A stretch of DNA of 64,000 bases. Source: Adineta ricciae. Lineage: Eukaryota; Rotifera; Eurotatoria; Adinetida; Adinetidae. The DNA lies in the NCBI GenBank assembly GCA_905250025.1, contig CAJNOJ010000204.1:124001-188000 (forward strand), read 5' to 3'. Positions 2,181 to 52,177 of the stretch are shown here, one piece after another. Every line of letters begins with the position of its first letter. Within the stretch, counting starts at the first letter, position 1. The notes beneath the pieces were generated by a model. That model saw only the letters and a list, made by a program, of their open reading frames with translations. It was not told where the DNA came from and ran no database searches. Made by a program: the position numbers and the translations under genes.

Positions 2181-4456
2181 ATGCACACATTTTCTACATT
2201 ACCTGTCGAACTTGTTTATCGAATTATGGATCATCAAAATGAGCTGACGCTATTTTTGTCAATGCAAAATATTTGTCGACGGCTCAATCAAATACTCAGC
2301 ACCTATGAGCGATATCGAGTAAGTTTTACTTGGCATTTTAACCGTCTTGTCGGCTATGCTACACATAAGCCTTATGATATTTAATGTCGTAAATTTCCTC
2401 ATAGAAAGAGAAAAAGTCATTTCATAATACCCACACAATTTGATCGAATGAAACAATCACAGTACCAAGTCATATGAAATCAAGCATTCCTCCACTCTCT
2501 CACCTCTCTTTTATGTATATTGAGCATCAATTCGGCCGATACGCGACGATGAACGAATAATACGCATAGTTATGCATTGTCGTCCTTAGTTGCGCTACTC
2601 ACTACAAACAAGTGCATCAGCTATAACTTTTGAGGATACTCATCCAATGAAGCAGCGTGAACTGCACAATTACTAGACCTATAACAATATTCATTCTCAG
2701 CAGGGTACACTAAATCCAACTCCCATATTTGACAACAGTATGACTAGGATTTTATTCGGGCACCCCTTGCAAAGAGGTATCTCAATACAACAATTACTTG
2801 TTGATAATTATGCCCTACTCTTTCCATTCCGTCAGTTGTCAGTAATTTCCAGTCCGGATTCCTAATAGCGCACCTCTTCTCTGAACACAGTATTTCCGGA
2901 GCAGCAACAAGCATCATCAACCACATCAAAAACTAACATACAGACACAACTGTTCCCTACAATTCCTTCCCAAACATAACCATTTCATCTCACATATACC
3001 CTACCTATCCTGCAATTAAAGGTTCCCTTCGTTACTTCCAAATTTTCTAATGTATTACTTTCATGCAGACGCTCACCACACTAAACCTCAATTACTGCAG
3101 TATTCGTCTTGTAACAGCGCAGCGCATTGGGCATGCGCTGCGAACAAATACGGTAATATTGATCAGCTTCCACAGAAGATGCAGCACTCACTTTAACTCA
3201 CACCTACAGACACTCACCACACTAAATTTTAGTCAGAACCAAATCCGTGATAAAGGAGCACAACACATTGCCGATGCGTTGCGAACGAACACGGTAATAC
3301 TGACCTCATTTCACAGAAAATGAAGCACTCAGTTTATCTCACACCCTGTAGGCGCTCACCACACTAGATCTCAGCGGCGACGGAATCGGTGACGAAGGAG
3401 CACAGCACATTGCGGATGCTTTGCAAACGAACACGGTAATATTCACCTCATTTCAAAGACAACGAAGCAGTCAGCCTATCTCGCATCTATAGACGCTCAC
3501 CACACTATACCTCGGGAGTAATCGAATCGGTCGTGAAGGAGCACAACACATTGCGGATGCTTTGCGAACGAACACGGTAATATTCACCTCATTTTACAAA
3601 AATCGAAGCAGTCAGCCTATCTCGCATCTACAGACGCTCACCACACTACAGCTCAGTGGCGACGAAATCGGTGGCGAAGGAGCACAACACATTGCGGATG
3701 CATTGCGAACGAACACGGTAATATTCACCTCATTTCAAAGAAAACGAAGCAGTCAGTCTCTCTCGCATCTATAGACGCTCACCACACTAAGGCTCGGCAG
3801 TGACAAAATCCGTGATGAAGGAGCACAACACATTGCGGATGCATTGCGAACGAACACGGTAATATTCACCTCATTTCAAAGACAACGAAGCAGTCAACCT
3901 ATCTCACACCTACAGGCACTTACCACACTAAACCTCGGGTGTAATCTAATCGGTCGTGAAGGAGTACAACACATTGCGGATGCTTTGCGGACGAACACGG
4001 TAATATTCACCGCATTTCAAAGAAAACGAAACACTCAGTTTATCTCACACCCTGTAGACGCTCGCCAGACTAGATCTCAGCTGGAACAAAATCCGTGATG
4101 AAGGAGCACAACACATTGCGGATGCATTGCGAACGAACACAGTAATATTCACCTCATTTCAAAGAAAACGAAGCTATTGACCTGTCTCACATCTACAGGC
4201 ACTCACCACACTAAACCTCCAGCATAATGGAATCGGTCGTGAAGGAGCACAACACATTGCGGATGCTTTGCGAACAAACACGGTAATATTCACCTCATTT
4301 GACAAAAAACGAGGCACTCAGCCAATCTCGCATCTACAGACGCTCACCACACTAATGCTCAACGACAACAGAATCGGTGATGAAGTAGCTGAACAGATTG
4401 CAGAGGTGTTGGGAAGGAATACAGTAAGATTGATGCTGTGCTCTAAAAAGTTTTGA
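2181..4456 (+). CDS. F-box / ribonuclease-inhibitor-type LRR protein, one LRR per exon
   Basis: Exon 1 (2181-2318, 46 codons, phase 0) encodes an F-box-like start with the core LPVELVYRIMDH, typical of bdelloid F-box/LRR proteins. After a ~750-bp intron or unresolved region come ten LRR exons beginning at 3069, 3210, 3352, 3493, 3634, 3775, 3916, 4058, 4199 and 4340. The first nine are exactly 84 nt (28 codons, phase 0); the last runs to a stop at 4456. Each encodes an RI-type repeat with consensus LTTLNL..N.IG.EGAQHIADALRTNT. If all join, the product is about 336 residues. F-box proteins usually recruit substrates to SCF ubiquitin ligases, and the LRRs would be the binding surface; both roles are family inference. 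The join between exon 1 and the first LRR exon is not proven, and a further small exon may lie in 2319-3068. It could also be a decaying copy. Confidence 0.7.
3069..4423 (+). repeat. 141-bp tandem exon+intron units (x10)
   Basis: Ten tandem units have start-to-start spacings of 141 or 142 bp. Each is an 84-nt LRR exon plus a 57-58-nt intron. The introns are nearly identical to one another: all start GTAATA, share a CACCTCATTT core and end in CTACAG, CTATAG or CTGTAG. The whole exon-intron unit was therefore duplicated, not only the coding repeat. Confidence 0.9.
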
Positions 4457-7400
4457 ATTTCTGTTTTATGTAATTCTTAGAACGTGAAGACGGTGTAGAT
4501 ATCGTGGTGAAGGGAATCGATGAAGAAGTCATAGTGGTTCTAGTGACTCTTTTCGTAGACAGAATGTTTTTGGATTGAAAACTTAGTAGATATCATTTGG
4601 TGTGTGATTTGCGTTATACTGAGAAGTAGTGTAGGAATAGAAATTGCATTTTTTCGACGTGAAGATGAGCTGAATGGTAATGTTTCTTGTTGTGTGAGAA
4701 ATATATGCGGAGTACTGAAAGTGAATGCTTTACCTACGAAGGTGTGATAGAACAGTGTTTGGTGAGAGAGTTATCATGGTTCGCTATATCAATGAGAGGT
4801 TCTCTTGGTTTGGGATTTGTTTGTGAGAGCGTTTGATTGACAACACAACATTAGTGTATACTGCTTGGCTATATTGGAGATATAGCAGAATTGAATCAAA
4901 AGTAGTACAGCACGTATGCACTTCAGATGTCAGTTCTCCTAACGGCAAAGTGAGCAGGGCGTGGTACACTAAATGGCAACGGTTTTTCATTATCAGATAG
5001 CAATTTCATGTTGTATTACAAAGTCTAAATGGATTGAGTGCTTGATAATGAAAATTTATATTTGTTTGAAGTGCATTTTCGGAAAGAGTCGTATTCAGCC
5101 GTTATGTATGAATTCAATGGTGCATTTGAAAGCGACAATTTGTTATAGAGTGGCTATAATGGCAAAGTGAAGAGGAAATAATTGAAAAATAGCACCCCAA
5201 ATCACTCTGTTGGATTAATCATCTCCTACCATTAGCGTAGTCTGGGAATTAGTTATTTTGTGGATTATGATCAGCTTTATTCACTCTTTGTGTTGATCCG
5301 TATGAAAATATCAGGGAAGTGTTTTTTGCAGTACTTGATTGTGGAAAAAGCATTGCAATATACTCTCGAGCTTGTTTGTATAGTATTCTTATAGCAAGGC
5401 TTTTCATTTATGGTTTGCTTACATTGAAAATATCTACACAGGTTGAAATACTAAGAAGTTTGAGGTTGTATGAAAATGCGAGGGATGATCATTTCTACAA
5501 ATTTTCTCAGTGAGATTTGGACTGGCAGATTTGATATCTAATGATAGGCAGCTATTGTACCCTTAATCCGATCGGAAGTCATCGGATGTCGGATCCGATA
5601 GTAGGATAATTCTGGAACCAGCGGGAACCACCGGACTTCTCTTGGGTTCATAAGTGCATTTTTAATTTGCTTTATTAATCTTATTTACCGTTTATTTCAA
5701 AATAATTCTTTCACTGCATGAAAGTACTGTTTTACGGCAGAAAAAAATGAAAAACTCTAACAAAAAAGTGATTATTCTAACAATCAACACCATTTTTATT
5801 GGTCAAAAAGAACTTACAGTTGTTGTCAAACTAAAATTTACGTACCATAAAGGAAATTTGAATCCATAAGCGTTCAAAAACTTCCGAATACATTAATACT
5901 AAAATATAACAGAAGAACGTGCTGAAAAATGAACCTACTTTGACAAAAAAAGAACAGTTGTATAATAAAAAAAATTCAGTCAATATGATAAATCTGTTTC
6001 AATGAAATTGTACCGATTTGTTCTAGTCTGAAATCGAAAAAAAATAGGAACACAACAGTTCTATGCTTAATTTCCGAATGAGGTTATAGTATTGCAGCAC
6101 TGTACTTATGTACATAACGTTCGAACTGACCGTTAGAAGTTCAATCATCAACAAGGAATTTTAATAATATATGTCGCCTGATCTTCAGAGAAGACCTTAT
6201 TAAAAATTGTAAAACTACTTTCCCCTAAAATGTTGATCACTTTTACTTATGATAAGGTTGCTAGAGCTTGAAAGTTCCCAAAAATCCGTCAAGATCATTA
6301 ATTAACGGAAGTATCATATATATAATGGTTGTTGTTGTCATATTCTGCTGAATCCGACAAAATCCGACTGTTGGATGACGTCGGACTGTTTAGGGATCCT
6401 TCAGGATCCTGTGGGGTGATTTCGCCCTGGGTATCTTTTGAATAAGGACAAAACTGCAAACCAGTCGGTCGTGCGTAATTCGACATTATAGTCTGTGTGC
6501 CAAGATATTATATATTCGTAGCGTTCCTTGATATTACATTTGGTTTGAGTACCTGTCTTTGAGTTCTCTACACATATTGTTGATTGAAAACTCGCACGAG
6601 ATGACGATCATTGAACAGAAGTGAATTTTGGCTATCTGAAATCACTCCAGGCCAATTTTATACCTGTAGTATTGCTAAGTTTTGAGATGTATCTGGATTG
6701 GTTATGTATATATCCCGCCTGTTTGCAAGGAACTAACAGCACTTGGTCAAAATACAGTCATATAAATCGAGTGGACTGAAAGTATACGAAGTATCATCAT
6801 CTATAAGTATAGATATTTTTACTTTTAATCAAAATATTTGCGCACATTAAGTCTCCGTTTGTTTATATACTCTAAAACAGTATATGGAAGTGCAGTGTGC
6901 CTAAAATGGTTTTTTTAGAAACTAGATGAAGACTACATAATGCTAATAAACCCTTTTGAGAGCTAGATCATCCTCCCATTTTTTTCTACACTGTACTGGG
7001 GAAACTCAACGTTTCCACTGTAGCTAGATAAATTGTTTATCTAGTCAGGCGTATCTTCGAAGTAGATGTAATTACGAACGAATGTGAATCATCTAGAAAA
7101 TTTCACTTCAATCTGATTCGTCTTTTAAAATTTGTTACGCTATGCGCACAGGTAGACAGTAATCGAACTTATAAAGGTAAGTTCGCTTTCTTGGTGGAAA
7201 AATGTATTGTTGGCTCGTTTGACTTAAAACGAAATGCAAAAGCCAAGATACTATCTCTCTGATAGATGCAATACATTTTCATATCAAACGAAAGATTGAA
7301 GTATAATTACTGTCAGTAATTAGGTGCACTAGTTCAAGCATTCGTTATTTCGTTACCGATTGATGGACAGAATATTTACAGGTAACGCCGACAAATAGAC

Positions 7401-7595: not shown

Positions 7596-10500
7596 ATGTC
7601 GGCCGAGTAAATACACACTCATCTGGCTACTGCACTATTACTCACTATATGTTTGTTTGTTTTTAGTCTACGATGGCTCGCTAAACAGATCGTCTTGTGC
7701 CTGCTTATACTATGGACAGTAGCTGTTCTTGTTGGCCTAGTGTTCACCTTTCTGCCGAATGAAGAGAAGAACAGCACGGCTATTGCTGGTTTTACTGATG
7801 AAGCAAGTACGTGAGAAATATCGATTAGGTTCACATGTTCAGGGCTCTAAAGGTGCAGCATCAACGACAGAAAAAAAGACTCGAACCAAAGTTTCTTCTC
7901 CAGACACAGTAATAAAATAGCACTGCTCCTGAGATGTGAAATCAAATGAAAGAAACGTGTTATAGTCTGAGTTAGATAGTACTTGGTATATTTGGTAGTT
8001 TTAGGATATCGATATGAAGCTTAGTACGACAAACACAATGTATTAGCTTAAAACGTTTTCACTGAACAAGTCCCATCCATACGAATCAGTGCATTCGATT
8101 GAGAATTTAATTTTGCATCGAATAGTGGTATTTTTATTTACGAAACAAGCTATGAAAAAATTTTATTTGTATGCGCAAACATATTTAAAAGAGTAATGAA
8201 TATTTTTCAAAACTACGGATATCGTTTTTGATAAACTTTTGCCAACAACCTGTGAGCGTCTGGATCTGATTAAAGTACCATTATACCGGCTTCAAATAGA
8301 AGACTACTGGCACAGTTACTCAGCTTGCTTGAAAAGTTAGTACCCACGACCGTGCAAAAAAGGGAAAAGCTCACTCATCTACTAACAAAGCACACATTCA
8401 TATAGGCAAAATGAAACAGAGAGAACAGCATCAACGATAACAAACATGCGTTCGGAACACAGTATATACAAAAAAATAACGAAAATGCGCATGAAAGTCA
8501 ACTTCCTCGAAAGTATTGCAAAACTATTTGGCCAACCTAATAGATCATATGAACGGGACTTATCTAGTAAAAAAAAACTTTTCTCTAACACATCGTTTCG
8601 TCGTGCTAGCTTCACACCGATTTTCTGGATGTCTTCATCGTATACATCCAACACATTCACCACAAAAACACTACTGAAACTACCGGCCAGAAGGCGCTAA
8701 AAGTCAAGAAAGAATTCTGATGATTTTCTTATTTCTCGGCATCTAGATTCGATTGTGTCTGAATTACTATATTAAAATCGGTACTTAAATACTTTCTCAG
8801 AAATTCAAGGAAATTGGCATTGTACTTATAATTTTCCAGCAGAAAATACAAAAATAGTTAATATTACATTCACCCTCTAGTTCTTGATAAATATACTGAG
8901 AAAATATACAAAAACTTATTTTTCAAATGTACTTTTGTTCTATTGACTGATTCTAACTCTGATTATGTTGGTTCAGAGTCAGCTATGCTCACACTTACCT
9001 ATGACACAAATATCACCACTAATGGATCATTGGTAGTTACAGATTTATCCGAACTTGCCGATCAAGTAAGAGAGATAGCAATGTTTATAAAAACGTTTCT
9101 AACAAAACTCATCTCTTATAGATCGCCAAATCCTATAGTATATCTCGCAACATGATACGCGTGTTTTCTGCACGATTTATTCGAAGTCTCATATTGACAA
9201 GACGAAAACGAAAGAGGTAAAGATGTGTTCATTCATAAATGACTTGGTAAATATGCAGAATGAATAAAAAAAAGTGACTCTCACCTGTCGAAATTCTACT
9301 CTAAATAGGCCAGAAGAACTGAGGAAGGATAAAGACATTATAATATATGATGATTTCAGATGTAGTAGGTGACAATATGACGATTTATGAGATAATAAGC
9401 AAAGAACAAACATTATTAACTGAGCTGTACTTCAAGCTACTTGACTATAGTCACGCTGAGATAGACTTTACACATATGAATGAAAACCGAAGTATAGTTT
9501 CACTTGAAGTACTAACTTACCTATGATATTGTTAAGAAGGCATTTGATCTTATCTCATGATTTATGTGTAGTGCAGTGTCAAGCAAACAGAGTAGTAATA
9601 TGGAAACTGGAAACTTGTTTACCGTCGGACTAGAGGCCGATTACCCATATTCTTGCGGTGGCATAACAATGTGCAATGATTTGTACATTGGTCGTATTCG
9701 AAATACAGTGCAGAGAACTGATCCAGTCACTTCATTTATAGTAACACTCAGTACCGGCACCCAAATGATGATTGCTGCTACATTTAAAGCGTTCGCGCAA
9801 ATAACCTCCACAACCACGACAACACAATCTACCTCTACGACAGAGTCAACAACAACAACTACAAGTACCACTTCAATTGCGTCTCCCACAACAACTACAC
9901 CCAAACAAGCCGCAACGATTACAACAACAGCAATAGCAACGTCTACTAAAACGGAAACCACAGTTCAATTTACTATTACCCTAGGACCCATTCAATCCAC
10001 AACAATAGCTAACACACCAACAACTCAGTCTACAGCCACCGCCATGGTATTTACGACATCCACTATTACAACACCAACAATAACGACACCAACAACTCAG
10101 TCTACAGCCACTGCCATGGTGTTTACGACATCCACAATTACCATACCAACAATTACGACACCAACAACTGAGACTACAGCCACTACAATGGTGTTCACGA
10201 CATTCACAATTACCATACCAACAATTACGACACCAACAACTGAGACTACAGCTACTGCAATGGTGTTCACGACACCAACAACTGAGACTACAGCTACTGC
10301 AATGGTGTTCACGACATTCACAATTACCATACCAACAATTACGACACCAACAACTGAGACTACAGCTACTACAATGGTGTTCACGACACCAACAACTGAG
10401 ACTACAGCTACTGCAATGGTGTTCACGACATTCACAATTACCATACCAACAATTACGACACCAACAACGGAGACTACAGCCACTACAATGGTGTTCACGA

Positions 10501-12513
10501 CATTCACAATTACCATACCAACAATTACGACACCAACAACGGAGACTACAGCCATTACAATGGTGTTCACGACATTCACTATTACCATGCCAACAATTAC
10601 GACACCAACAACGGAGACTGCAGCCACTAACATGGTGTTCACGACATCCACTATTACAACACCAACAATAACGACACCAACAATAATGACACCAACAACT
10701 GAGACTACAGCCACTACAATGGTGTTCACGACATCCACTATCACCATACCAACAATTACGACACCAACAACTGAGACTACAGTCACTAACATGGTGTTCA
10801 CGACATCCACTATTACCATACCAACAATTACGACACCAACAACTCAGTCTACAGCCACTAACATGGTGTTCACGACATCCACTATTACAACACCAACAAT
10901 AACGACACCAACAACTCAGTCTACAGCCACTAACATGGTGTTCACGACATCCACTATTACAACACCAACAATAACGACACCAACAACTGAGACTACAGCC
11001 ACTACAATTGTGTTTACGACATCCACTATTACGACACCAACAACTGAGACTACAGCCACTACAATGGTGTTCACGACATCCACAATTACCATACCAACAA
11101 TTACGACATCCACTATTACCACGCCAACAATTACCACACCAACAATTACGACACCAACAACTGAGACTACAGCCACCGCCATGGTATTTACGACATCCAC
11201 AATTACCACACCAACAACTGAGACTACAGCCACTACAATGGTGTTCACGACATCCACAATTACCATACCAACAATTACGACATCCACTATTACCACGCCA
11301 ACAATTACCACACCAACAACTGAGACTACAGCCACTACAATGGTGTTCACGACACCAACAACTCAGTTTACAACCACTACAATTGTATTTATGACACCGA
11401 CTACTACGACCTCAACAACAACAACAACAACTACTACTACAGGTTCTACGACAACAGCAGCAACAGCAATAACTACTGCTACTACTAGCACAACCACAAC
11501 CTTAACGACTACAACAATAACTACTCCTACAACGCCAACATTACCAACGTCAACAAGTTCTACGACAACAACAACACCTACTATTAGTACAATGACAACC
11601 TTAGCAACAACAACGACAACGGCATCTACGACAACAATAATAACGACTACTACAAGTACTTCTACGACAGCAGCAGCAACAACCACTAGTACTACTACGA
11701 CAACATTAACGACAACAACATCAACTACTACTACCAGTACAACGACAACAACAATAAGTACTACTACAAGTACTACTACGACAACATTAACAACAACAAC
11801 GTCAACAACTTCTACGACAACAACAACATCTACTACCAGTACAACGACAACAATAATAACTACTACTACAAGCACTTCTACGACAGCAGTAGCAACAATA
11901 ACAACAACAACTAGTACTACTGCTAGCACAACAACGACGCGTAAGTGATCATTATAGTGTTGGAATAAAGATTACAAGGGTTCTATTTGGTTTATCTGTT
12001 TTCATAGAAAGTTCAATTCAGATTTGTGCAGACTATTTCACGAGTAGCTCTGTTCTTTATTTTGTTACCAATCCATCGACAAACATTTGGGGATATCCTA
12101 GTTACGTGCAGTACTCTTTTAATCGAACGGCAACTACGACAAATACAACCATTGGATTTTTCTTTCGGAACGATCCTGGTGGCTGGATGTTGGATGATGT
12201 GTCAGTGTATATTGGAAGTACACAGTTGGCTGTCAACGGTGGATTTGAAACTGGTAATTTAAATGGTTGGGTTTATCGCACGAGTGGTAGTGCTTGTCTA
12301 TTAAATAAAGGACAAGCTTATTCTGACTCGTGGCCCTCATCGAATCATGCGCATGGTGGAACTTATTACTACTATGATCGGTGTAGCAGTGGATGTGATG
12401 TGATACAACAATCGTTTGTGACTGTTCCTGGGAATATTTATATAATTAATTTTTATCTCACAAACTACGGTTGTTGTGGAACTACATCAATTGCAGGTGT
12501 TACATTTTCATGA
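7596..12513 (+). CDS. Type II membrane, threonine-rich mucin-like protein
   Basis: Six exons fit in phase: 7596-7606, 7667-7806, 8977-9065, 9122-9216, 9572-11940 and 12008-12513. They total 3210 nt (1069 aa). The tiny first exon gives MSAD, followed at once by a membrane anchor (core CLLILWTVAVLVGLVF), so the bulk is expected outside the cell. Next comes a ~150-residue spacer with a short Cys-containing segment, then about 700 residues of Thr/Ser/Pro-rich sequence: degenerate ~24-residue repeats (core TTPTTETTATTMVFTT), then almost pure Thr tracts. The C-terminal ~170 residues are ordinary sequence rich in Cys, Gly and Tyr (ending CCGTTSIAGVTFS), with a LDDVSVYIGS segment reminiscent of carbohydrate-binding jelly-roll folds. 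A heavily O-glycosylated surface or mucus protein is likely. Intron 3 (7807-8976) is exceptionally long because it holds a foldback element. The N-terminal exon chain rests on phase agreement alone. Confidence 0.75.
8008..8621. mobile_element. Foldback/MITE-like element, copy A (in the mucin gene intron)
   Basis: The left end begins ATCGATATGAAGC. The right end reads GCTAGCTTCACACCGAT, the inverted complement of the family terminus ATCGGTGTGAAGC. About 70 bp at each end pair imperfectly, sharing AAGTCCC and the ACAC/TGTGTTAG blocks. A second copy of the same family is at 53399-53741. No transposase is encoded, so it appears nonautonomous. It explains why this intron is 1170 bp when its neighbours are ~60 bp. 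Confidence 0.7.
10020..11400 (+). repeat. Thr/Pro-rich coding tandem repeats
   Basis: Degenerate coding repeats of about 72 nt contain ACACCAACAACTGAGACTAC followed by an ATGGTGTTCACGAC block. Shorter and longer variants arise from deletion or insertion of the ACAATTAC sub-block. The array changes at ~11400 into simple ACN-rich (Thr) sequence that runs to 11940. The frame stays open throughout, which suggests selection for length-tolerant, glycosylatable sequence. Confidence 0.85.
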
Positions 12514-14402: not shown

Positions 14403-14672
14403 GACGTGAAGTCGGTGGTGTCGTCATTCATATATTGACATGATTAATAAAAAGTATCTGATCAGAATTGTATTTCTAAATAATGTTTTCTAAAATCAGA
14501 CAAAGTCATGAGTCGTAGACAAAAAAAAACATTAGAAATTGGTTTCATATGAAATCATTCATGTTGGAGATTAGAATTTACGAGAAAATATGAGAAAATC
14601 ATTGTATTCTCTTATTCACTTCTTCTCATATAAAAAAAAGGAACGATTTAGAGTTGAGTTCATTGATAAAAG

Positions 14673-15410
14673 ATGATTTCTACGAAGAATGCCATTTCAT
14701 CTGATCGTCTAACAAATTTAAAAGATCAAATCGATTTAGTTCTTTGTCCAATTTGTGGTGATGTTCTCTGGAAACCTGTCACATGTAGTTCATGTGAAAA
14801 TTCTTTTTGTTCTTTTTGTATTGATAAATGGTTGTTCGAACAACAAAAAGAAATTATTCCAAATCTTGATAATGAAACTCATCTGGATTATTCAACGAAA
14901 TCTTTATCATTAACTCGATGTCCATTCAATTGTTCGCCTTATATTCAACGAAATTGTCCGTCGCTATTACGAATAATTTTATCGAAATTGAACATTGAAT
15001 GTCGAAACAAAATCAACGGCTGCCGAGAAATTCTTTCTTATGAACAATTGGAAAAACATCAAGAAGAATGTTGTCCTTATCAAGTTATTCAATGTTCGGG
15101 GTGTAAAAAATTTATTCGGAAAGACGTTTTTGATGAAGAAAATCACTTTTTAATGTGTCGTTATGTGAAATTTCAATGTACAAAATGTGAAAGTGTCTTT
15201 CGACGAGAAGATAAACATGATCGATTTGATTGTATCGAAGGACAAATTCGTTTGTTGGAACAACGATTAATGTTAACGGAACGGAAATATTCGACTATTT
15301 GTGAAATTCAAAGAAAGAAATTGGATATTTTCTATGAAAAGTTTGCGGTTATTGAACAAAATTATGAAATCGACAACGATGATTCAATAGAAAGAACAAA
15401 TGGAGTGTGA
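14673..15410 (+). CDS. RING-type and TRAF-type zinc-finger protein
   Basis: Single exon, 245 aa. Residues ~25-50 hold a RING-like finger (CPICGDVLWKPVTCSSC, then CSFCIDKW), with a later Cys pair (RCPFNCSPY) after an insert of ~30 residues. Residues ~105-190 contain TRAF-type zinc fingers: CRNKINGCREILSYEQLEKH followed by CPYQVIQCSGC, a second H..C unit and C..C pairs. The C-terminal ~60 residues are a predicted coiled coil. RING plus TRAF fingers normally indicate an E3 ubiquitin ligase working in signalling. The MATH domain of true TRAFs is absent, so this resembles the short RING/TRAF-finger proteins expanded in rotifers. A possible poly(A) signal AATAAA is at 15502. Confidence 0.85.
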   Translation: MISTKNAISSDRLTNLKDQIDLVLCPICGDVLWKPVTCSSCENSFCSFCIDKWLFEQQKEIIPNLDNETHLDYSTKSLSLTRCPFNCSPYIQRNCPSLLRIILSKLNIECRNKINGCREILSYEQLEKHQEECCPYQVIQCSGCKKFIRKDVFDEENHFLMCRYVKFQCTKCESVFRREDKHDRFDCIEGQIRLLEQRLMLTERKYSTICEIQRKKLDIFYEKFAVIEQNYEIDNDDSIERTNGV

Positions 15411-15907
15411 ACATAAAAATGAAGTATAACTGTTAAAACATTCAGATTTTTTGCTTTATCGACATTTTGTATGGAAAGTTTTCTTTTGCGACAAAAAAGT
15501 GAATAAATTCATGTTGATTTCTTCGTACAATCAAGAAAATAATTTTGTCTTCATTTACATATTGTTTCGTTCATTGCTGTTAACATAATCTTTGCCAAAT
15601 TAAGGAAATGAGAAAAGATAATTCAGATATTGAAGGATAAACATATGAACTTAGAGAATAAATAGCAATGATTAAAGCTTCGACACACAAATACATAATT
15701 AGACTCTCTCGGAAAGAAACAATCATTTCTATCCAGTTAATAATATATAGGAAAAGATGATTTAACCGATATCGCTTATATAAATGATGGTTATGGATCT
15801 ATTGAAATTCATTTTGTTTTTCTGCATGTACGATTTAGAATGAAAATAGTGAAATAGACGCAGATATCTATATCAATGTAGTGCTTTTTTTTCATGAAAT
15901 ATTCATA
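15411..15907. other. Intergenic
   Basis: 3' region of the RING gene and 5' region of the next gene. No feature beyond a possible poly(A) signal near 15502. Confidence 0.5.
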
Positions 15908-16660
15908 ATGGTAACTGATAGTGTCATAAACGTTATCTACATCGAAGATTATCAAGTTTCCTATAACAATACGCACCTTCATCATTTTACTCATTTACCT
16001 GACAACATAAGTCAAACATCTATTCAACTAACAATGACAAACATCGATGTTAATGTTGAAGGTTTGGATGAACTCGTTGATCGATCATTAACTCGTGTTA
16101 TCGAGGAAATCAATCCAACTCTTGAGAAATTTCAAAATCTTTCTCTTGAACTTATCTCAACATTGGAAACACGCATAAAAGAAAATGTTTCAGAAACACT
16201 TTACTACTTGGAAACTAATTTATTTGTCCTTCTATTCGTAATGATAGTTGTCCTTATTCTTATCCTTATTATGTTTTGGTTACTTGAGACTGTTATGAGA
16301 AATTTTGAGTTCAAATTAGCAACACGAAAATTCATCGGTTTAATATTCTTTACTGCTATATTCATTTGGTTATTCGTTGCCACTACCCTTGCGACGTTTC
16401 CTCCTCCACAACCGATTGATCTTCAAACATTGAAATATATTTTATTTAGTGTGTTATGTATAAGTAGTGCGGTAATGATCTTTATCTGGATACGATGGAT
16501 ATGTATACATCGAAAATGTATTCGCACGTTTTTTGTTAACGAACTTTGTCATTTTCAATCGAAAACATATCCAATCGAATCAATAACAACTATCAAGACA
16601 GTAGTGGACAATATACCAATGGATCCAGTAGCAGGAAACCGAAAGAACACTTTATTTTAA
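15908..16660 (+). CDS. Unknown multi-pass membrane protein
   Basis: One open exon. ATG 15908 gives 250 aa; ATG 16034 (MTNIDVNVEGLDELVD) gives 208 aa and is a plausible alternative start. An N-terminal helical stretch (GLDELVDRSLTRVIEEINPT) precedes three strongly hydrophobic segments: LFVLLFVMIVVLILILIMFW, IGLIFFTAIFIWLFVATTLA and ILFSVLCISSAVMIFIWIRW. A basic cytosolic-looking tail follows. I do not recognise the family. The topology (helical N-terminus, three TMs, basic tail) is the only functional clue. Confidence 0.6.
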   Translation: MVTDSVINVIYIEDYQVSYNNTHLHHFTHLPDNISQTSIQLTMTNIDVNVEGLDELVDRSLTRVIEEINPTLEKFQNLSLELISTLETRIKENVSETLYYLETNLFVLLFVMIVVLILILIMFWLLETVMRNFEFKLATRKFIGLIFFTAIFIWLFVATTLATFPPPQPIDLQTLKYILFSVLCISSAVMIFIWIRWICIHRKCIRTFFVNELCHFQSKTYPIESITTIKTVVDNIPMDPVAGNRKNTLF

Positions 16661-17360
16661 ATGCTATCATATTGTTTGTTTTGTATTACAATTTATTCAA
16701 GAGTGTTGCCTCTGAAAGATCATTATAGTAAAGAATATTCATACTTTCGCCCGATAGAGAAACTATTCCTGACTATAAGAGATCGTCAAAGTACGATAAG
16801 TGCAGATATTCTGCCATTCTTTCTGACAGATAAATCTGAATGATATTATTATGAATAGTTCATGCTTACAAGAAATATGTTCATATGGTCGAACATCAGA
16901 AGTTTGATGGATGAAGTGAAATTTCTAATGAATCATGACAGTTCCGAAGGATGACAAAAACATCATGAGAATAGCCGTTTCTTTTCACGATTCAACGTTT
17001 ACGGAAAACATTTCGTTTCTTTCTTGTTTATTATAATCTTTACTTTCGAGTCAATATATGTGGATTTAAGCACGTCATTGTCTCATCATTGTCCAAATGA
17101 TAATCATCAAAATACGCTGTTACTTTTCCATCATAGTCAGAACTTCTAATGTAAAATATAAAGAAAACAAACTAAATAAATTCAATTTATAAAATTGCAG
17201 TTTTGTTGTGTTAATAAACTTTCTTCGAGTGATTAAATGAGAAATATCGATGAAAAGAATTCAGCAATCAATGATTCATTTGTATTTCGCGATGTTCGCA
17301 CGCGCCGAAAGAACAACATCAACTGAATCATGACATGGATACTAATCTGAATTAATCGAT
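16661..17360. other. Intergenic, beyond the truncated polycystin-like 3' end
   Basis: This is where the remaining membrane helices and pore of a polycystin-1 would be expected on the minus strand. I find no exon with hydrophobic segments or splice-compatible frames. Confidence 0.45.
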
Positions 17361-20300
17361 TTAATTATTTGGTTCTTTTGATAAATACAAGAAAAATGAT
17401 TTCGTACAAACCTGTTCTGAACTAATATCGAGAGAATCGCAGAGTGTACCGAGACTGTCCGTCTTCTTTTTTGTGTTTATCTGTTCCATTTGATCATGGT
17501 AGAGAGCATTCAATGACGCCAACACGAAACGTAAAGTTAAGCAAAAACTACAACGTTGAACTCGTGTGAATTCCTTCGACGGCGAATGCAAAATAATCGA
17601 AAATCGAGGATATCCTTCAGCCAAATAGTGATGCTTTTGTATAGTTCGAAGGTGAGAAAACTGTTGTGCTTGGTCTTCATTTGCCACTTTCGAAATCTGT
17701 TTGATCTATAATACAATAACTTTCTATTAAAATCGTATTCTGAAGTATCAATTACTCGTTCATTGTCTTCTGCAACAGCTATCCATTGTTCAAAAATGAA
17801 ATTGAATGTTTCTATCGTTTTTAAATCACGAAAAATAATGTATTCAAAAAACCAGGATGTTAAATGACCTATTTCACTATTGTCATGCCAGATATAAATA
17901 CAGTTCAATGAACAAAATGATCTATGAGTTTGGAAAATATTTCTTTCAATCATTAATATAAAAAGGAATATGTTCACCTGGAAACAACGATCAGAAATGA
18001 ATCAACACCAGAATGTTCGAAGATTTTGGGATGTGATTGAATAAATGAACGAATTTCTGTCTCATTCTTCTTTCCCAACATCATAAATTGTACCTAACAT
18101 ATGCAGCGTTTCCATCGTTATCAATTTTAATTCAATCTTTTACTTTCAATTTTAATATTGTATCTTTCTGATTATCAATCACCATCATCAATGGTAGCTA
18201 AAGCAGAAATACCTTCATATTTCATCTATTTACAATTGTGTCATTGATACTTTTTGCATATCTTTGTTGTCTTCATAACGTACATAGATCAGCAATATGA
18301 TATAAATAGTGAAGACATAAACAATTGCAACATAGACAGTTTTATTTCGAAGAAAATCCGTATTGGAAAAGCTATAATCCCAATTGATTGGCGCAGGTAA
18401 AACAAGAAAACCACCTGCAAATGTTGTGAGATGATTCGAATAACATTCAGTTTCATTATGATTTGTTCGTGATCCCACCTAAAAAAATCACGTACAGAAA
18501 AGTTTCTCTATCGAAAATATTCTATACTATCAATCCATCTGATTGCCAGTTATTTTTGGAATCAAGATAATAACAACCAGAAACATAAGTACGAAGATTA
18601 TAGTTGGAAGAGAATACAAATGGATCTGTTGGTACGGGCAGAGTGTTGTTTGATCGATTCGAACAAAATGTAATTAGTTCGAAAGAATTCATTTCTCGTA
18701 AACCAAATATCACTGATTGATGGTTAGCTGTCTGTTGATTGTCAAGAAAATAAATGTAATAACTATCATTTGTCAGATCTAAAGTAAGCAGAAGTATTCA
18801 GTCGATGAATTACACTAGTTTCGATGGTTGCACTTACTGTATGGACAAAAGAGTGTCCAACCTGCAATTGTATTGCTCGAACTATCAAATTTGTAGGCCA
18901 AGAAATAAGCTAGACTTGTATTTAAAGGTTCCATTTCAAGATGAAGTGATACAGACAGATTTGGTTTAAATTGATTTAGATTAATGTAGTGCCAGTTAAA
19001 TAGAAGATGTCGAGCAGTAGAATTGATTGCTGTAACATTTTGTAAACTCATCGGTGGAAGAACAAAGTTTTTATCTCGAGGAATGATTAATTTAATAGAT
19101 TGATTGGTTTGAATTGTCAATTCATTTCCATTCCGATCAAATATTGAAAAGGAAAGAGATCGAGAAAGATTTGTATTTGATTGATCAGCAATGGCTAATG
19201 GTTGTATTAATGACTAGAAATAAACAAATAGAATTCAACGTGATCTTTCGGAAAAAGTTAATCGTCAGACTCGAATAGAAATTGTTGTAGAATTGATATT
19301 GGCAAGTGATGATGGAAGGTGAACTTGTGCGTTTTCTGTTAATTGAACGAGTTTATTCGAGAGCGAAGCAACTGATATGGTTTCCAGTGAGAGAAATAAT
19401 GCTGAAGTGTTTATTGTACAATTTTGACCGATGTTTATGTGAGTTTGTAAGATTTTTGTGAGTAATGAGAGAGTTTCCGTTGACTGAGCGTCGATTTGAT
19501 TAGCCGTTTGTTTTTGATAGTAGAAATTTCGGCCATTCTGTATTGTTTGCCACGAATAATCATTTCCGTCAGCAAAGAATTCTTTAGAAAATGAAATAAG
19601 AGTATTCATCATCAAACAGCAAAAAGTCCTACTCAGATCAGACCATTTAAATTCAACATCTGTATCATAATCGTAAGGAAATTCATTCGCACGAGAGAAA
19701 TCTAAATCAAGAGTCGTTATTCGTTGTTGCAATGGTCCATTAATCGCCTAAAAAGACATTTCATAATCGGATGACATCAAACATAGTCAAAGATCCTACA
19801 GTCATAACATTAGAAACACATGTAGCAATTGATTGAACTGCTGCTTGAGTGTCTTCGTAGGAGATCTTGTTCATTATTAAGTACAGTTTCTGTGCTAGTT
19901 GATGACATTTTGCTGAGGCGTTTGTCTACATAGTCACATATGAAAATGAACAATTTACAAAATAAAATAAAGCTATTCGAACAAGTACCGAAAGCAGTCG
20001 TGTAAGCTGATTAGTTGATTGAGTTAGTTGAGCTATGGTTGATGCTTGCAATGTAATTCCCTTTGTAGTAGGTATAATCGGAAGATTTGTGAGAGTAGTC
20101 ATGAGATATTCTCGAATGGTAGCATATGTGTTCATTTGTTTATTGAAATAGAGCATTGTTGATGCATTCGGTAACACATAATTGCTCGAAAAACTGGATT
20201 CTCCGAGTGGCGAAACAAAAACACTGGCAACAGGTATATCTTCTACAAGAAAAAGATTAAAAGAAAGTCATAAGATTAATTCAAAGAAGATACGTACTAG

Positions 20301-23300
20301 TAACAGCATTCTGCAGTTGTTCGTTATTGATTTGGTTTAATTCTTGTGAAAGTATAGTGATAATTTGTTCGACAGTATTCTGATCTCCGGTCGAAAGTAG
20401 CTGAGAGAAGAGATGATTTGTGGATATGTTTGTCCTATTTCGAAAACTATCTATGAGATCACTCAAGATTGTCGTATCTTGAACGATGAGAACTGATGTG
20501 AGATTGAAATCAGTATAACTGTTCAATGTGTCTTGAATCTTCACAAACAGATTCAATCTCGATGTAGTGTTGCTTCCGGCTGGTAATCGAACTTGAAACA
20601 TAGGTACAGAACTGAAAGCGACAAGATTGGCGTTGGATTCATTTTGGTTGTAACCTAAAAGAGTTTCATATGGTTTTGGCATATACAAAATAGAATATAG
20701 ATCATGTTTATAACTTACTATAGAGCGAATAATCGTTGATGCTATTCTCATCGAGCCAGTTGGAACATGTTATTGTAAATAGAGTCATTGTTGTACCATT
20801 AAGAGGATTAATAGAACAAGATCCATTTCGAGGTGGTGCGTTGATGAGAAAATTCAAAGCACTCACACCTATTCCATTCAACGATGAATAAATAACTTCA
20901 AATCTCCAATAAATAATTTGAGGATTGACGAAAAAGATTTCTTTTGCCACAGTGAAATTACTTGTATTCATACCTACAATAGTCAATCATATGTCGAATC
21001 AATAGTTGACGACGGTAGCTTACCAAACAGCCAAATATTTTCATAGGCATTCGTCTGATTCCATCTAATCCATGAAATAAGATTCGATGATCTATTAGTC
21101 AGACTATAATAGATATTCCATGTGATATTAACACTTGTTTGACAATTGTCAATGCAAAGAGAAAACAAAGCCACTTGTGTTGTAGGATTGATTAGTTGAA
21201 ATTCCAGGTTTGACGCGCACATTGTTGATATTACACAGCTAAATAAATTGTGAAGGATGTAAATAACAGAAACGAAATATTGGGAAGCATACCCAACAGC
21301 GACGATTTGAGTGTTGTAATCAACAGTTTGAACAAGTAAATAACCAATGGCTGATGAAGAAGTATTGTAAATGGATAGCATTTTCACCATGAATTGATAT
21401 GTTTGATTAGGACGAAGCGATCTTGAGAGAATTCGTAGCGATGATGAAGGAAATGAAACAACTCCAATATCTGGAAAAAAAAACAGATAAAGCGTTGCAA
21501 TCCAAACAGATTAAAAAATACTTGATCTATTGAAGAAACACGATGAATTGAATACAAGACTTCGAGGATCATCGATTGTCAGTAATGAACCATTTATACT
21601 TGGGAAACTTTCAGAATCCAGTGTGCGACAATAGTATTCATACATCCAGTTCTATATATATAAAGAAATCTATTTAGAAGAAGAAATGTATTCGAAAAAA
21701 GATCTCACGGAAGCATTGAATATGTTTTCATCAGGATCGATTGAATTTGCTCCGGGATCCAGGAGTAGATCTGTAGCATAACCGAATGTAATCGATGACG
21801 TTCCAAATTGAAAAAGATTAACTGTGATGCCTGTTGGAATGATTTGAATATAAGCAGAACTCAATCCAATTAAACTGGATGAAGAAACTAGAGTGACAGT
21901 CAACTTAAATTCATAAATTTCGTTGGGTAAACTTTTAGCAGGAATAAAGAGATCACTGTGAGTTGTGACAATGGTTGGATTGATTTGAACTAAAGATGAA
22001 CAGTTACGGGAACAATTGAACACAGTCCATTGTGTTTGTATGGCTAAAGATTGATTACAACTGGGTTGGATATTCGAACTGATATAAATATCTTTGCTGT
22101 ATTGAAACTGTAATGGCGATAGCAATGTTGAAACATTTGGAATCAATGTCACGATAGGTGGAAAACAACCGGAGTTACTCTGATTAATGACTGATAATGA
22201 AACTGTACTTAGATTGTATGATATTGATGATAACGGTGAAGATTGAAGTAATCCAGTTGTGATTGTAGTTTGTTTAACAGGTACTCCTGAAAACATATAA
22301 TTCCAAAAATTAATCAGATACGATACAGGATATAGATAAGTACAAAATCATGTTACCTTGTGTTGTAGTGGTTTCTATGGCTGCAGAAAAAAAACGGAAA
22401 ACATAGATAGTTAGGAACTATGAGGAAAAAAACTCACCACAAGAATTAGTCATTAAGATAAATTTTTGAATCTGTTGATTAGAGCGATCAGAAACGAAAA
22501 TATTTCCATAACTATCAAAACCAAGCGTTCGTGGTGCATTCAGTTGATTGGACAGCGAACCTGCCACCGGAGTAGAACATCCAACAATACATCGAAAACC
22601 ATAAAGTCCCGAACCAATAATACGATTATTCGATGTATCTACAATAAATAAATAACCACCCCCATCGATAAAGACTCCTGTTGGCATAGTAAGCTGGAAA
22701 CTTCCAGATGTTCCATTCCCAGCTACGGTTGTTCCATTTCTTTGTCCGACTGCAAATTTTTGAATTCTATTATTGAAAGCATCGGCCACATACAGCGAAA
22801 ATTCGGAATCAACGAAAATTCCGTTTGGATGACTAAGCGAATACGCGTCCGAGCCAGCAGTACTATTTCCAGCAACAGTTTCCAATGGGCTCGATCCATT
22901 GCTTAATGACATTTTCACTACTTCATGCAGATCATCATAGGATATATATAAAGTGTCATTGAGATCAATGAAAATTCCAAGAGTTTGCGCACTGATATTT
23001 GTGACGAGTTCACTCTGTGATCCGTTTGACGTCCATTTCAGAAGTTGACTGTTCTTACCATTGTCAACATATATATCACCATTGTTTGCGACAAATACAG
23101 CGCCTGGACTATTTAAATTGCCAGATAACGTGTGAATAAGATTACTGCTATTTCCAGACCATATGTAGATTGTATTGGAACGTTGTGAAGTGGCATAGAT
23201 AATATTGTTGATGTCAACAAATAGACCAAATAAGTCGTTGATATTGTTGGCGAATGTAATACCATTTGGGTTCCACGTTGCATTTGGACAAAACGTCAAC

Positions 23301-23432
23301 TGGTTGAAGAATGAACCTGAAAAATAATAGACTAGCGCTTTTCATATTTCTATTGGGAATATACTTACCTACAACTGGATTGCCAATGAACGAAAGGATT
23401 AACGAAAAAACGAGATGACATGAGTACCACAT
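17361..23432 (-). CDS. NHL-REJ-GAIN/GPS-TM-PLAT polycystin-1-like protein, C-terminally short
   Basis: Nineteen exons were traced (23432-23369, 23316-22438, 22380-22357, 22286-21709, 21651-21522, 21470-21293, 21238-21024, 20973-20719, 20654-20298, 20242-19989, 19925-19800, 19747-19271, 19213-18838, 18778-18528, 18478-18251, 18197-18144, 18093-17978, 17921-17756, 17705-17361). They sum to 5073 nt, 1690 aa, with matching phases. Order: signal peptide; NHL-type propeller (~1-315, e.g. GIFVDSEFSLYVADAFNNRI); REJ region (~325-890); GAIN-like region and GPS (CYYLDSK..W, then CYSNHLTTFAGGF); TM1 (VYVAIVYVFTIYIILLIYV); PLAT domain (IYIWHDNS, WFFEYIIFRDLKTIETF); and a post-PLAT segment with polycystin signature EFTRVQRCSFCL. 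The reading frame then stops; the ~9 further TMs of polycystin-1 are absent. Polycystin-1 is a ciliary receptor/channel subunit; here only an autoproteolysable receptor part could be made. The 54-nt exon 18197-18144 is the least certain. Upstream in-frame codons reach 23546. Confidence 0.85.
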
Positions 23433-23638
23433 AATTAATATGTTTGCTGATTCAGGAAAAATCAATTTTAGTTGAGCGGAAAAGAATATAGACAAACGCT
23501 TATATATTTTCAGACAGTGACTGTTTGTCTTCGTTGCGCCAGACAAAATTGATTATGTACGAATGATTGTTTTATGTTTCTGATTGAAATACACATTGCC
23601 GTAGCGAAATAAAACTAAACATAATATCGGATCCGACG

Positions 23639-24073
23639 TAAAGCAAACAACAATGTCCTTTTCATTCATATATTTTAAATTTACTGGGTGATCGCCGACC
23701 TTTTGTAAAATTTATAAACGAAACATTAATCATCTCGGATGAGTTTCTGGTGATATCTCCTCATTTTGAAGGATGTGACCCGAGCGCGATTATGATTTCG
23801 AAATTAGATAAACATTTTACTGAATGGAGGCTTCGGAAATGAAACTGTTGTGTACNTAAAGCAAACAACAATGTCCTTTTCATTCATATATTTTAAATTT
23901 ACTGGGTGATCGCCGACCTTTTGTAAAATTTATAAACGAAACATTAATCATCTCGGATGATTTTCTGGTGATATCTCCTCATTTTGAAGGATGTGACCCG
24001 AGCGCGATTATGATTTCGAAATTAGATAAACATTTTACTGAATGGAGGCTTCGGAAATGAAACTGTTGTGTAC
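23639..24073. repeat. 217-bp direct duplication either side of an N (assembly gap)
   Basis: Bases 23639-23855 and 23857-24073 are the same 217-bp sequence with a single difference (GATGAGTTT versus GATGATTTT), separated by one N at 23856. This is the pattern of two overlapping contig ends joined without merging, so the duplication is probably not biological. Confidence 0.9.
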
Positions 24074-48778: not shown

Positions 48779-50608
48779 TCACGTGAAACGACGACTGTCG
48801 ATATTTCTTTCATATTCAGCTCGCATTTGTCGATAATCATTTCTTCGAATAATTTCTTTTATTTCTTCAATTGTTTTCACTTGAAATAATTCTTTAATCT
48901 TCTCTTCTTCGACTGCAGGCTGATCTTTCCAAACAAAACTCTTGCCACAACCTACTCCTTTGGTGTCTGATGCAGACTGTGACATGTTGTCAGTTAGTGT
49001 GTATTCCAGTAATTCGTCGAGTCTCCGAAGTGTATGATGAAGTCTGAAAGCAATGTGTTGGATGTGCTCTCTTCTTCGTTCTTCCATATCTGCTCGTAAT
49101 TGTAATATGCCGGAATTTTTTATGGATGCAAGTAATTGTTCGAGTTCCATATACATATGATGAAATCTGGAAGCGAAATCTTCGGCATAACGTCTTTCTC
49201 GGTTAATTCTTCGCCTCTGAAACACGCCCAAAGTTTTTATGTATTCGTATAATGTTCCGATTTGTTCATATACATGACGAAATTCCAAAACAGCACGTTC
49301 AGGATAACCCCTTGTTTCTTCTCTACTTGTTTGAGACTGTGACACACTGTGAGCTCTTATGTCCCCGAGTAATTGCTCCATTTGTCTAAGTGTACGCTGA
49401 AGCTCGGAAACAATGCGTATGACTTCACTTCTTTGCGGATTGTTTGTTTGTAATTGTGAATTATTGCGAGCATTAGTCTCTTCAATTTTCTGCCATTGTA
49501 TACGTCTCTCCACGCGTACGAATGTAAATCTCCAGAATGTCTTTCCCGAGATATCATAAGCTCTGTTCATCGGTCGCTTTCCACATGAAGTCGACCCATC
49601 GCAACCAGTTACTTTGAACCAAACTTCCTGACAATGAGGACATCTTTTGATCATATTTCGAGGGTCAGTGGTGTCCAGTAGACTGTATGACATCATAGCA
49701 GATACATTTGTAGTGAATTCAGTACAAAGTTTGATTTTTTCTTTTTGCATCATTACAGCAAATCCATAACTTTCCAGTTCTTGCATATTAGCGCCATGTG
49801 TACCAATAAACTGTTCCGTTAATGCTTCCAGTTCATTCTTGAAGCTTACAATGCTCATGTGAAGGATTTCATCTTTCTCTTGTGTGTTAATATCGGATTT
49901 ATTAAGATCTTTAATTAAATTTGTGTAATCATCTTCGATCTGCTTTGTTTCTCGTAGAAATTTATCATATGCTGCTTTGATTTTGGCTTTCATTTCGTAA
50001 ATATTGAAATTGAGATTAAATTCTTCGTCGCTTATTTGCAGCGTTTCTGCTGGCATTTTGAATAAGTATGAATGCATTATATCAGCTATTTCGGATCGAT
50101 CATCTTTTTCTGAATAAAATATAAAATTGAAAGATTTATCAGGATATTCTTCCTTGAATACGTCGTTAATTTCCTTTTTATCGCTATTTGAACTTTTCGA
50201 TAAATCTATATGAGAAATCATGACAACAATCTTATGCGAATATTTCTCTACAGGCGTCAACAGTTTAAGATAATCCAATAGTATATTATCAAAACGACTG
50301 TCGTATTTGATGACAAAGAAGATCGTATTGATTGGTGTGCCTGTCAATGCTTCTTTTAATAGAACAGCATGCTTGAATGTATCAACCTGACTATCAACAC
50401 CGGGCGTGTCAACAACTTTGAATGGATAAGAACCACAGTTTACAGGATTTTCGAAAAGTTGTCTAGTCTTGCTCTGCCTTCCTGAACCTGATTCATGATT
50501 TGTTCCACATAACATGTTGGATAACGTGGTTTTTCCTGCTCCCGTATTTCCTATGATCACACCGACTGGATTTGAACTAATGACTGGAGACGAATTGGTA
50601 GTTGCCAT
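48779..50608 (-). CDS. AIG1/GIMAP-like GTPase with split zinc module and inserted helical repeats
   Basis: Single exon, 609 aa. The GTPase domain shows G1 GNTGAGKTT (20-28), G3 DTPG (67-70) and the G4-position SHID (132-135), as in AIG1/GIMAP and related P-loop GTPases. A helical region (~200-310) precedes a zinc-binding half-site CPHC...GCDGSTSCGKRP (323-346). The second half, GVGCGKSFVWKD, appears only at ~551, whereas in the related proteins I recall the two halves are separated by only a few tens of residues. The ~200-residue insert holds four related helical repeats (RTLRQMEQLLGDI, HVYEQIGTLYEYI, HHMYMELEQLLASI, HHTLRRLDELLEYT) with Arg-rich linkers. A role in immunity or membrane remodelling is family inference. 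It is divergent from a second, degenerate GTPase 672 bp away. Confidence 0.82.
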   Translation of the reverse strand: MATTNSSPVISSNPVGVIIGNTGAGKTTLSNMLCGTNHESGSGRQSKTRQLFENPVNCGSYPFKVVDTPGVDSQVDTFKHAVLLKEALTGTPINTIFFVIKYDSRFDNILLDYLKLLTPVEKYSHKIVVMISHIDLSKSSNSDKKEINDVFKEEYPDKSFNFIFYSEKDDRSEIADIMHSYLFKMPAETLQISDEEFNLNFNIYEMKAKIKAAYDKFLRETKQIEDDYTNLIKDLNKSDINTQEKDEILHMSIVSFKNELEALTEQFIGTHGANMQELESYGFAVMMQKEKIKLCTEFTTNVSAMMSYSLLDTTDPRNMIKRCPHCQEVWFKVTGCDGSTSCGKRPMNRAYDISGKTFWRFTFVRVERRIQWQKIEETNARNNSQLQTNNPQRSEVIRIVSELQRTLRQMEQLLGDIRAHSVSQSQTSREETRGYPERAVLEFRHVYEQIGTLYEYIKTLGVFQRRRINRERRYAEDFASRFHHMYMELEQLLASIKNSGILQLRADMEERRREHIQHIAFRLHHTLRRLDELLEYTLTDNMSQSASDTKGVGCGKSFVWKDQPAVEEEKIKELFQVKTIEEIKEIIRRNDYRQMRAEYERNIDSRRFT

Positions 50609-51280
50609 AGTATTGCTTTTGAAACTTTAAAAAAGAGAAGAATGTAAACTTGTTGAAGTGAAAAATATTCAAGCAACAGAGCTACTATACATACACCAAG
50701 AACGTATTTTGGAGAAATGGTTTTTACCAAATGATATAAAAACGGAAAGTGGCTCAAAATGATGAATTTGATTGGATTTTATATAGGGAATGCTAAAAAA
50801 AACTCTTGGAGGTATTTTTCCCTTTGCGGGAAATAGAAGAAAAACATGAAAAGCAAATATTTCGTTCCATCATTGTCATACAAACAAAGACACCAATTGT
50901 TTGCTCGTCGTTCTCACTCATATTCGGAGCATGAGGCCATTTATTTTCTGTTTTTATTTCTCAGTGTTTTTTAATGGTTTCGTTCTATAGTGTCTATGAC
51001 TCACTGAGTATTAAAAGCAAACTGGGTAAAAATTTTGTTATTAAAAAAGTTTCTTCAGCATAAATTCTCTTATCTTTACGCTGCAAAACATTTCAAACGG
51101 AATTAGTCTGATCGACGAAAATCTAGTGTGGATCCTATACTGATGAACGAAAATGGAAATTTAAGCAGTTTTTAAAAGGTAAATATTTATTCTGTCTCGC
51201 TGTTCATCACGGAAACTCCGCTTTTTGTTTAATTCGATTTCGAAGAACTACATTTCATTCGTCATTCTAGATTTATCACA

Positions 51281-52177
51281 ATGGTTAATGGAATTTCAGC
51301 TCGCATGAGGCATATGATTGAACCGAATGTTTTAACTGAAACATTGTATGCTCTCGTTATCGGCGAAAAAGGCGCCGGAAAAACAACACTAGTCTCCGGA
51401 CTATATAAACTTCACCCAGTTGATCGTCGAGTGTTAAATACAATAGAAAAGAAAGATAACTACTACCCAATATGTCAACAAATGAATTCAGTTGTATTAA
51501 TTGATGGATCAGAAGAAGAAAACGTCGAACAAATTTGGGAATCTACAGAAATTTCCGTCGTCTTCCTTGTTATAAAGTACGACACTCGATTCGAACGTAT
51601 GTTGACCAGTTATTTCACAAATGAAGAACAGATAGAAAAACATAGTGCTAAAGTCATCGTGATGTTTTCACATTGGGATCATTCGAAAGATCCAGAGAAA
51701 GAGTTCGAAGATATATGTGAATTCTTCGAAGAAGAATGTTCAAATATTTTGAATTTAATCTGTTATTCTGATCAAAATATGAATGAAGAACTTGTGGACA
51801 TGATTTTCAGATGTATTTCTCACTACAATCCAAAAACATCGATATCAACGAAAGACGAGTTATCTTCGAATACCGAACAAGAGAATATCGAGACTGTTGC
51901 AAATTTTAACGGTCAAAACCAGTTTCTATCACAACAATCATCTGATCATGTCTGCAACTTGTCAATAGAAAATAGTACGAGTAATGAAATGGGAAACGAT
52001 CAAACATCTAGAACAGTTCGCATTTGTAAGTGGCCCTATCAGTTATGTTCAAGGAAAAGACTGTCTATTGTAGCTGTTTCAATCTTTATGACTTCCTTGA
52101 AAACAATTTACTGTTTCTATATTACCTCACATCCGTACTTGTCGTTATCCAATCACAATCGAACCGAAAAACTGTAG
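51281..52177 (+). CDS. AIG1/GIMAP-like GTPase, degenerate paralogue
   Basis: Single exon, 298 aa. G1 is intact (GEKGAGKTT), and the stretch VFLVIKYDTRFERML parallels the neighbouring GTPase (FFVIKYDSRFDNIL), as does VIVMFSHWDHSKDP. The G3 DTPG is replaced by LIDGSEEEN, the protein is half the length, and the zinc module is absent. The C-terminal ~110 residues are polar and then weakly hydrophobic (SIVAVSIFMTSLKTIYCFYI), possibly a tail anchor. It may bind but not hydrolyse nucleotide, or be decaying; the frame is intact. Confidence 0.7.
   Translation: MVNGISARMRHMIEPNVLTETLYALVIGEKGAGKTTLVSGLYKLHPVDRRVLNTIEKKDNYYPICQQMNSVVLIDGSEEENVEQIWESTEISVVFLVIKYDTRFERMLTSYFTNEEQIEKHSAKVIVMFSHWDHSKDPEKEFEDICEFFEEECSNILNLICYSDQNMNEELVDMIFRCISHYNPKTSISTKDELSSNTEQENIETVANFNGQNQFLSQQSSDHVCNLSIENSTSNEMGNDQTSRTVRICKWPYQLCSRKRLSIVAVSIFMTSLKTIYCFYITSHPYLSLSNHNRTEKL

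Follow-up and report, generated by a model that had tools for sequence, protein, structure and literature searches.

An NHL-fronted polycystin-1/REJ gene lacking channel exons in the bdelloid rotifer Adineta ricciae

We have analyzed a 64,000 nucleotide stretch of the genome of the bdelloid rotifer Adineta ricciae (C204:124001-188000, contig CAJNOJ010000204.1; hereafter the window), with searches across the 130 Mb assembly, and report on a minus-strand gene which joins an NHL propeller to a protein of the polycystin-1 (PKD1/REJ) family. This gene probably still codes for protein and belongs to a bdelloid family of polycystin-1/REJ receptors with an NHL front, within which it has been reduced at the C-terminus; it would act through its ectodomain and not by ion conduction, and resembles a sensor that has been detached from its channel. 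Because paralogs with both PLAT and channel exons exist (contigs C300, C255, and C228), sequence comparison indicates that the absence of the channel arose secondarily, by reduction of one family member. The original prediction had described a 19-exon gene that keeps REJ, GPS, the first transmembrane segment (TM1), PLAT, and an EFTRVQR signature behind an NHL propeller and stops right after PLAT near position 17361 without a pore region; a full-length version elsewhere was to count against it.

Manual splicing from a start codon at 23432 gave open, phase-consistent exons on the minus strand, in agreement with that prediction, which had however missed one exon of 54 base pairs (bp). Our own splicing first yielded 20 exons, and the 21st was revealed by comparison with the sister gene on C453. 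The final model runs from 23432 to 17233 in 21 exons with 5085 coding bases and 1694 amino acids; its sole stop codon is the terminal one, there is no frameshift, and all 20 introns are GT-AG and measure 49-70 bp each. The 157 bp at 18250-18094 would be a length outlier if taken as one intron, and are best split into an intron of 53 bp (18250-18198), an in-frame exon of 54 bp (18197-18144), and an intron of 50 bp. The extra exon was accepted because C453 has the same intron-exon-intron layout at the corresponding place (52, 102, and 53 bp). The 53 bp intron resembles its C453 counterpart beyond shuffled sequences (1 of 500 as good), the 50 bp intron only weakly so (87 of 500). Compared with C255, the whole stretch was matched by none of 300 shuffles, which counts solely as evidence of homology for the stretch. 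An earlier interpretation, in which an in-frame TAA reached by reading on from exon 16 after TM1 was a nonsense mutation and the 157 bp were decayed PLAT coding sequence, was dropped since C453 places this TAA in an intron. The end near 17361 turned out to be the product of reading through intron 20 (17411-17347), a position at which C300 and C255 splice and C924 reads straight on; the spliced frame leads to a stop at 17233, the predicted 3' end.

The ectodomain carries the features expected of the family. Exon 1 (23369-23432) holds the start codon and a signal-peptide-like hydrophobic stretch, and exon 2 (22438-23316) a single propeller, which is a six-bladed NHL fold as modeled: the exon alone scores 1.1e-13 against Pfam NHL, its AlphaFold2 model has a pLDDT of 91.3 and a pTM of 0.91, and the best Foldseek matches in the PDB are NHL-type propellers, including Pizza6 designs and TRIM2 (TM-scores 0.70-0.90). 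The Pfam search on the 20-exon chain returned REJ (PF02010, 2.1e-40), NHL (1.9e-10), and GPS (PF01825, 3.6e-5). The REJ domain covers exons 4-9 (20359-22071 including introns, DNA coordinates derived by hand). The GPS, in exons 15-16 (18416-18575 including the intron; 24.6 bits, cut-off 22.5), lies before TM1 and keeps the HL/T site, and is a predicted cleavage motif of the kind found in adhesion-type GPS receptors. TM1 (18281-18337) is the strongest hydrophobic stretch of the protein, with a 19-residue hydropathy of 2.62.

Beyond TM1 the picture is one of partial retention. PLAT was not found by Pfam on the 20-exon chain; on the tail of the 21-exon model PF01477 is matched over profile positions 18-110 of 117 (25.7 bits, cut-off 23), and the PLAT exons alone reach 29.3 bits, also above the cut-off. 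The domain is therefore kept only in part, its first exon (exon 17, 18144-18197) being reduced to 54 bp or 18 codons versus 102 bp or 34 codons in C453, followed by the middle (exon 18, 17978-18093) and the end with IWHDN (exon 19, 17756-17921). Exon 20 (17412-17705) contains the EFTRVQR region, which matches polycystin-1 chains in the PDB (6a70, 5.4e-12) as had been proposed. The protein does not stop after PLAT, since EFTRVQR is directly followed by a degenerate TM2 (hydropathy 1.19 versus 1.86 in C300) and exon 21 (17233-17346) encodes a TM3 of reduced length and part of TM5 before the stop. Outside the model, 17043-17171 holds a remnant of the next ancestral exon, with the end of TM5 and an acidic loop. 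For the TM5 piece, no shuffle in 300 was as good against C300 and C924, 11 were against C255, and five against C228; for the acidic loop none was against C300, C255, and C228, and 216 were against C924, whose reference ends before the loop. In the genome-wide scans none of 109 PLAT matches and none of 90 PKD_channel matches fell on C204, the latter in line with the predicted absence of the pore region.

The contrast between a kept ectodomain and a worn tail speaks for our reading. Invariant columns were defined as at least 90% identical among relatives. Fifteen loci were excluded beforehand because they were the window or belonged to different gene families; eight of the 37 loci with matches were then dropped as near-duplicates or too short, which left 29; no NHL column passed the criterion, so the figures exclude this domain. 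The window gene keeps 107 of 112 invariants in REJ and the segment that follows and 32/35 in GPS and TM1, and after TM1 29/53 in total, with 14/23 in exons 18-19 (PLAT) and 15/30 in exon 20. Within the GPS (residues 1346-1400) all 20 are kept and in residues 1401-1447 15 of 20, the losses starting in TM1. The per-locus comparison covered 23 of the 29 loci (L017, L019, L025, L030, L051, and L052 were left out; among these, L017 has a decayed tail with 18/25 and 4/6, and L030 keeps 20/22). Fourteen of the 17 tail-bearing relatives keep 93-100% of the same tail columns; the lower scores of the other three (L044, 45/68; L036, 50/59; L023, 46/59) are due, in part at least, to alignments that cross introns or gaps. 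When all 17 serve as the reference set, the window gene keeps 102/113 ectodomain versus 34/62 tail invariants (Fisher p 2e-7). Amino acid identity to C255 gave the same result: in exons 14-16 the window gene (0.62) equals the channel-bearing C300 (0.61), while in exons 18-20 it falls to 0.39 versus 0.70 for C300. In exons 18-20 the excess divergence affects codon positions 1 and 2 to a similar extent, which points to relaxed constraint. In a neutral simulation at K 0.2-0.25 the 192 tail codons remained free of stops in only 0.07% to 0.6% of runs. From the kept frame and the tail losses we infer a copy that is still coding and has been released from channel function.

Relatives of the window gene are numerous in the same genome. 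A search with its REJ-to-tail part returned 102 exon matches over many loci, and among the best 43 of 405 candidates no locus besides the window's own exceeded 66% identity. PF02010 gave 103 matches, grouped into 65 REJ clusters, of which at least 30 are followed within 8 kb by a PKD_channel match on that strand; this is a lower bound, since others are masked by introns and contig ends. The joined C-terminal exons of C300 (L051) carry PLAT, Polycystin_dom, and PKD_channel with an NHL exon in front, and PKD_channel matches also lie on C255, C453, and C228. The upstream part was checked in seven genes (window, C16, C255, C300, C453, C600, and the second C188 gene), and an NHL exon was present in each; the REJ of C255 is mostly assembly gap. 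For C558 the ~690 bases covered before REJ are in part Ser/Thr-rich and gave no NHL match. The NHL profile search scored 150 of 2777 candidates, and no genome total was derived from it. Judged from these sequences, the predicted NHL front is real and is a common trait of the family, not special to the window gene, and channel-bearing NHL-fronted relatives exist alongside it. The paralogs on C300, C255, and C453 share with it the NHL front, GPS, TM1, and PLAT exon order, and C228 shares GPS, TM1, and PLAT exon order, its front part being outside the sequence compared; unlike the window gene, all four keep PLAT and channel exons. The full-length version elsewhere that was to count against the original prediction is in essence supplied by C300, C255, and C228, as judged by their PLAT and channel exons rather than by a predictor's count of transmembrane segments. 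C453 (L044, C453:36400-44400) is itself imperfect, its NHL match being interrupted by one stop codon and the HL/T site of its GPS changed to YPAT; its GPS/TM1 exon matches occur at three places (1-165, 4203-4391, and 4425-4655) and a piece of channel exon is repeated around an X. Two tandem NHL propeller stretches, as against one in the window gene, were seen in L042 and L052 (C16), L043 (C255), and L051 (C300).

The window gene is not the only short copy. Eight further copies end between GPS and PLAT: those on C118 and C600, two on C523, and the first of the C188 genes have their stop at the GPS cleavage site or next to it, C668 ends in decayed sequence after GPS, C16 ends just after TM1, and C124 ends within PLAT. 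For C600 ~560 bases after GPS were covered, and no PLAT or channel match lay on the short-copy contigs in the genome scans. C349 runs into a contig end and was excluded from the count; a reading of the first C188 gene as ending before GPS was rejected, since a GPS exon with a stop follows after an intron. In six measured short copies 87-95% of the ectodomain invariants are kept, as compared with 83-99% in tail-bearing relatives, and the best-matching exons are without a stop (L026, L029, L031, and L038 being covered from exon 7 or 8 on only). In a tree of 33 rows the window gene adjoins C453 (support 0.95), a gene with PLAT and channel exons. The six short copies included are scattered: C523 is next to the channel-bearing C506 (0.999), C600 beside L013-L016 (0.87), C118 with C668 (0.72), C124 inside a clade of tail-bearing copies, and C16 in a group whose placement is weak (0.48). 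If these placements hold, their scatter suggests that the C-terminal half was lost independently several times.

Several points weigh against a gene that is still at work. The 54 bp exon is only weakly like the C453 exon (34 of 500 shuffles as good), and the whole 157 bp stretch is not significantly like C300 (108 of 300) or C453 (61 of 300). The last exon closes on a stop where relatives continue coding, remnants of the next exon persist downstream, the two long in-frame deletions could also have arisen by chance, at K 0.1 about 3% of the neutral runs have no stop, and the gene model was drawn from genomic DNA only. The persisting remnants and the early stop may mean that decay of the gene is under way, and a gene early in dying, whose 3' half lost function first while the whole locus becomes a pseudogene, is a possibility we consider doubtful but serious. 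It would account for the lost PLAT and TM2 invariants, the deletions in PLAT and TM3-TM5, and the downstream remnant, and other copies do decay, such as C293 (L017), where PLAT is broken and partly deleted, and C668 with its decayed remnants after GPS. Against it, 1694 codons hold neither premature stop nor frameshift, the ectodomain is kept as well as in tail-bearing relatives, and so diverged a tail would rarely stay open under neutrality.

It appears unlikely that the locus is collapsed or mis-assembled, with another haplotype or the real sequence carrying the full 3' end. The neighboring genes tested occur once in the assembly (one match, no second close copy), so that an allele would go unseen, and upstream of the gene there is a direct duplication of 218 bp, 99% identical (23636-24071), with the single N of the window about at its junction, which looks like an unmerged contig join. 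Both lie upstream of the gene, however, and not near 17361; there is no second N anywhere in the window, and the 3' end differs by substitutions and deletions spread along it, without a clean break. Conversion of the 5' half by a paralogous gene was rejected, as no recent donor is visible among the 43 candidates scored above, an unseen allele being a possible source. The adhesion-type receptor with intact TM1 and PLAT and a clean end after PLAT, for which the open frame and the kept GPS and TM1 would speak, is very improbable, given a shortened PLAT with 14 of its 23 invariants in exons 18-19 and the TM2 and further codons behind it. We retain the still-coding, C-terminally reduced receptor as the best account of the window gene.

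Such a protein would be exported, cleaved at the GPS, and held in the membrane by TM1, its ectodomain being the active part, either displayed on the surface or with the N-terminal fragment shed as a ligand or decoy; the tail after TM1 would be translated, with most of the PLAT and channel-coupling function gone. Human polycystin-1 (PKD1), a protein of kidney disease, has REJ, GPS, TM1, PLAT, and an FTRIQR region and then TM2, behind a front of LRR, lectin, and PKD repeats. The window protein shares the order from REJ to TM2 and differs in its NHL propeller and in lacking the TM6-11 channel. According to PMC1934368, channel-less members of the PKD1 family are already known: sea urchin SpREJ1, SpREJ8, and SpREJ9 have one transmembrane segment and SpREJ10 none, and as SpREJ proteins range from 0 to 11, 11 segments with a channel are not universal in the PKD1/REJ family. 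The window gene is likened to these four by the missing channel and not by sequence, and NHL has no occurrence in that paper. NHL families are expanded in Adineta vaga (PMC3846280). NHL-fronted polycystins were not described in the literature searched by title and start of abstract (bdelloid or rotifer polycystin/PKD1; bdelloid NHL; NHL with polycystin/REJ), most subscription journals lying outside it.

The 3' end of the gene is converged upon by two plus-strand frames, one with a RING-type zinc finger (14670-15407) and one without a Pfam match (15839-16660). Elsewhere in the window there is a long Thr-rich, mucin-like frame with repeated TPTTETTATTMVFTT units (9561-11948) and a pair of P-loop GTPase-like frames in opposite orientation (48779-50626, matching MMR_HSR1, and 51233-52177, with no Pfam match). 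In the assembly, open frames of 726-1002 amino acids contain 28 of the 67 Lig_chan-Glu_bd matches (C286 and other contigs), which suggests an expanded family of single-exon glutamate receptors; by far the best PDB match of the C286 gene is AvGluR1 (266 versus 63 bits), an Adineta vaga protein, and this supports a bdelloid origin of the DNA. Repeats of TGTGGG, presumably the bdelloid telomere motif, gave 28 genome matches, an uninformative number as the control was the same repeat in another phase.

More tentatively, the nine short copies, which end at the GPS, directly behind TM1, or in the PLAT region, may mean that in bdelloids members of an expanded NHL-polycystin family have lost the pore repeatedly and independently, giving secreted or tethered ectodomains that serve as ligands or decoys for channel-bearing paralogs, much as the soluble N-terminus of PC-1 does for PC-1/PC-2; we hold this broader scenario to be less likely than not by a wide measure. 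A soluble N-terminal PC-1 fragment activates the PC-1/PC-2 channel (PMC7728438), which makes such a role plausible and proves nothing here. If the short copies are expressed, they would be a natural experiment in which the sensing and channel halves of polycystin-1 have been separated several times within a single genome, where channel-bearing relatives allow direct comparison with the short copies. They would then be relevant to the question of whether the cleaved N-terminus acts as the signal in its own right (PMC7728438), and the NHL front would extend the polycystin-1 architecture by a sensor module.

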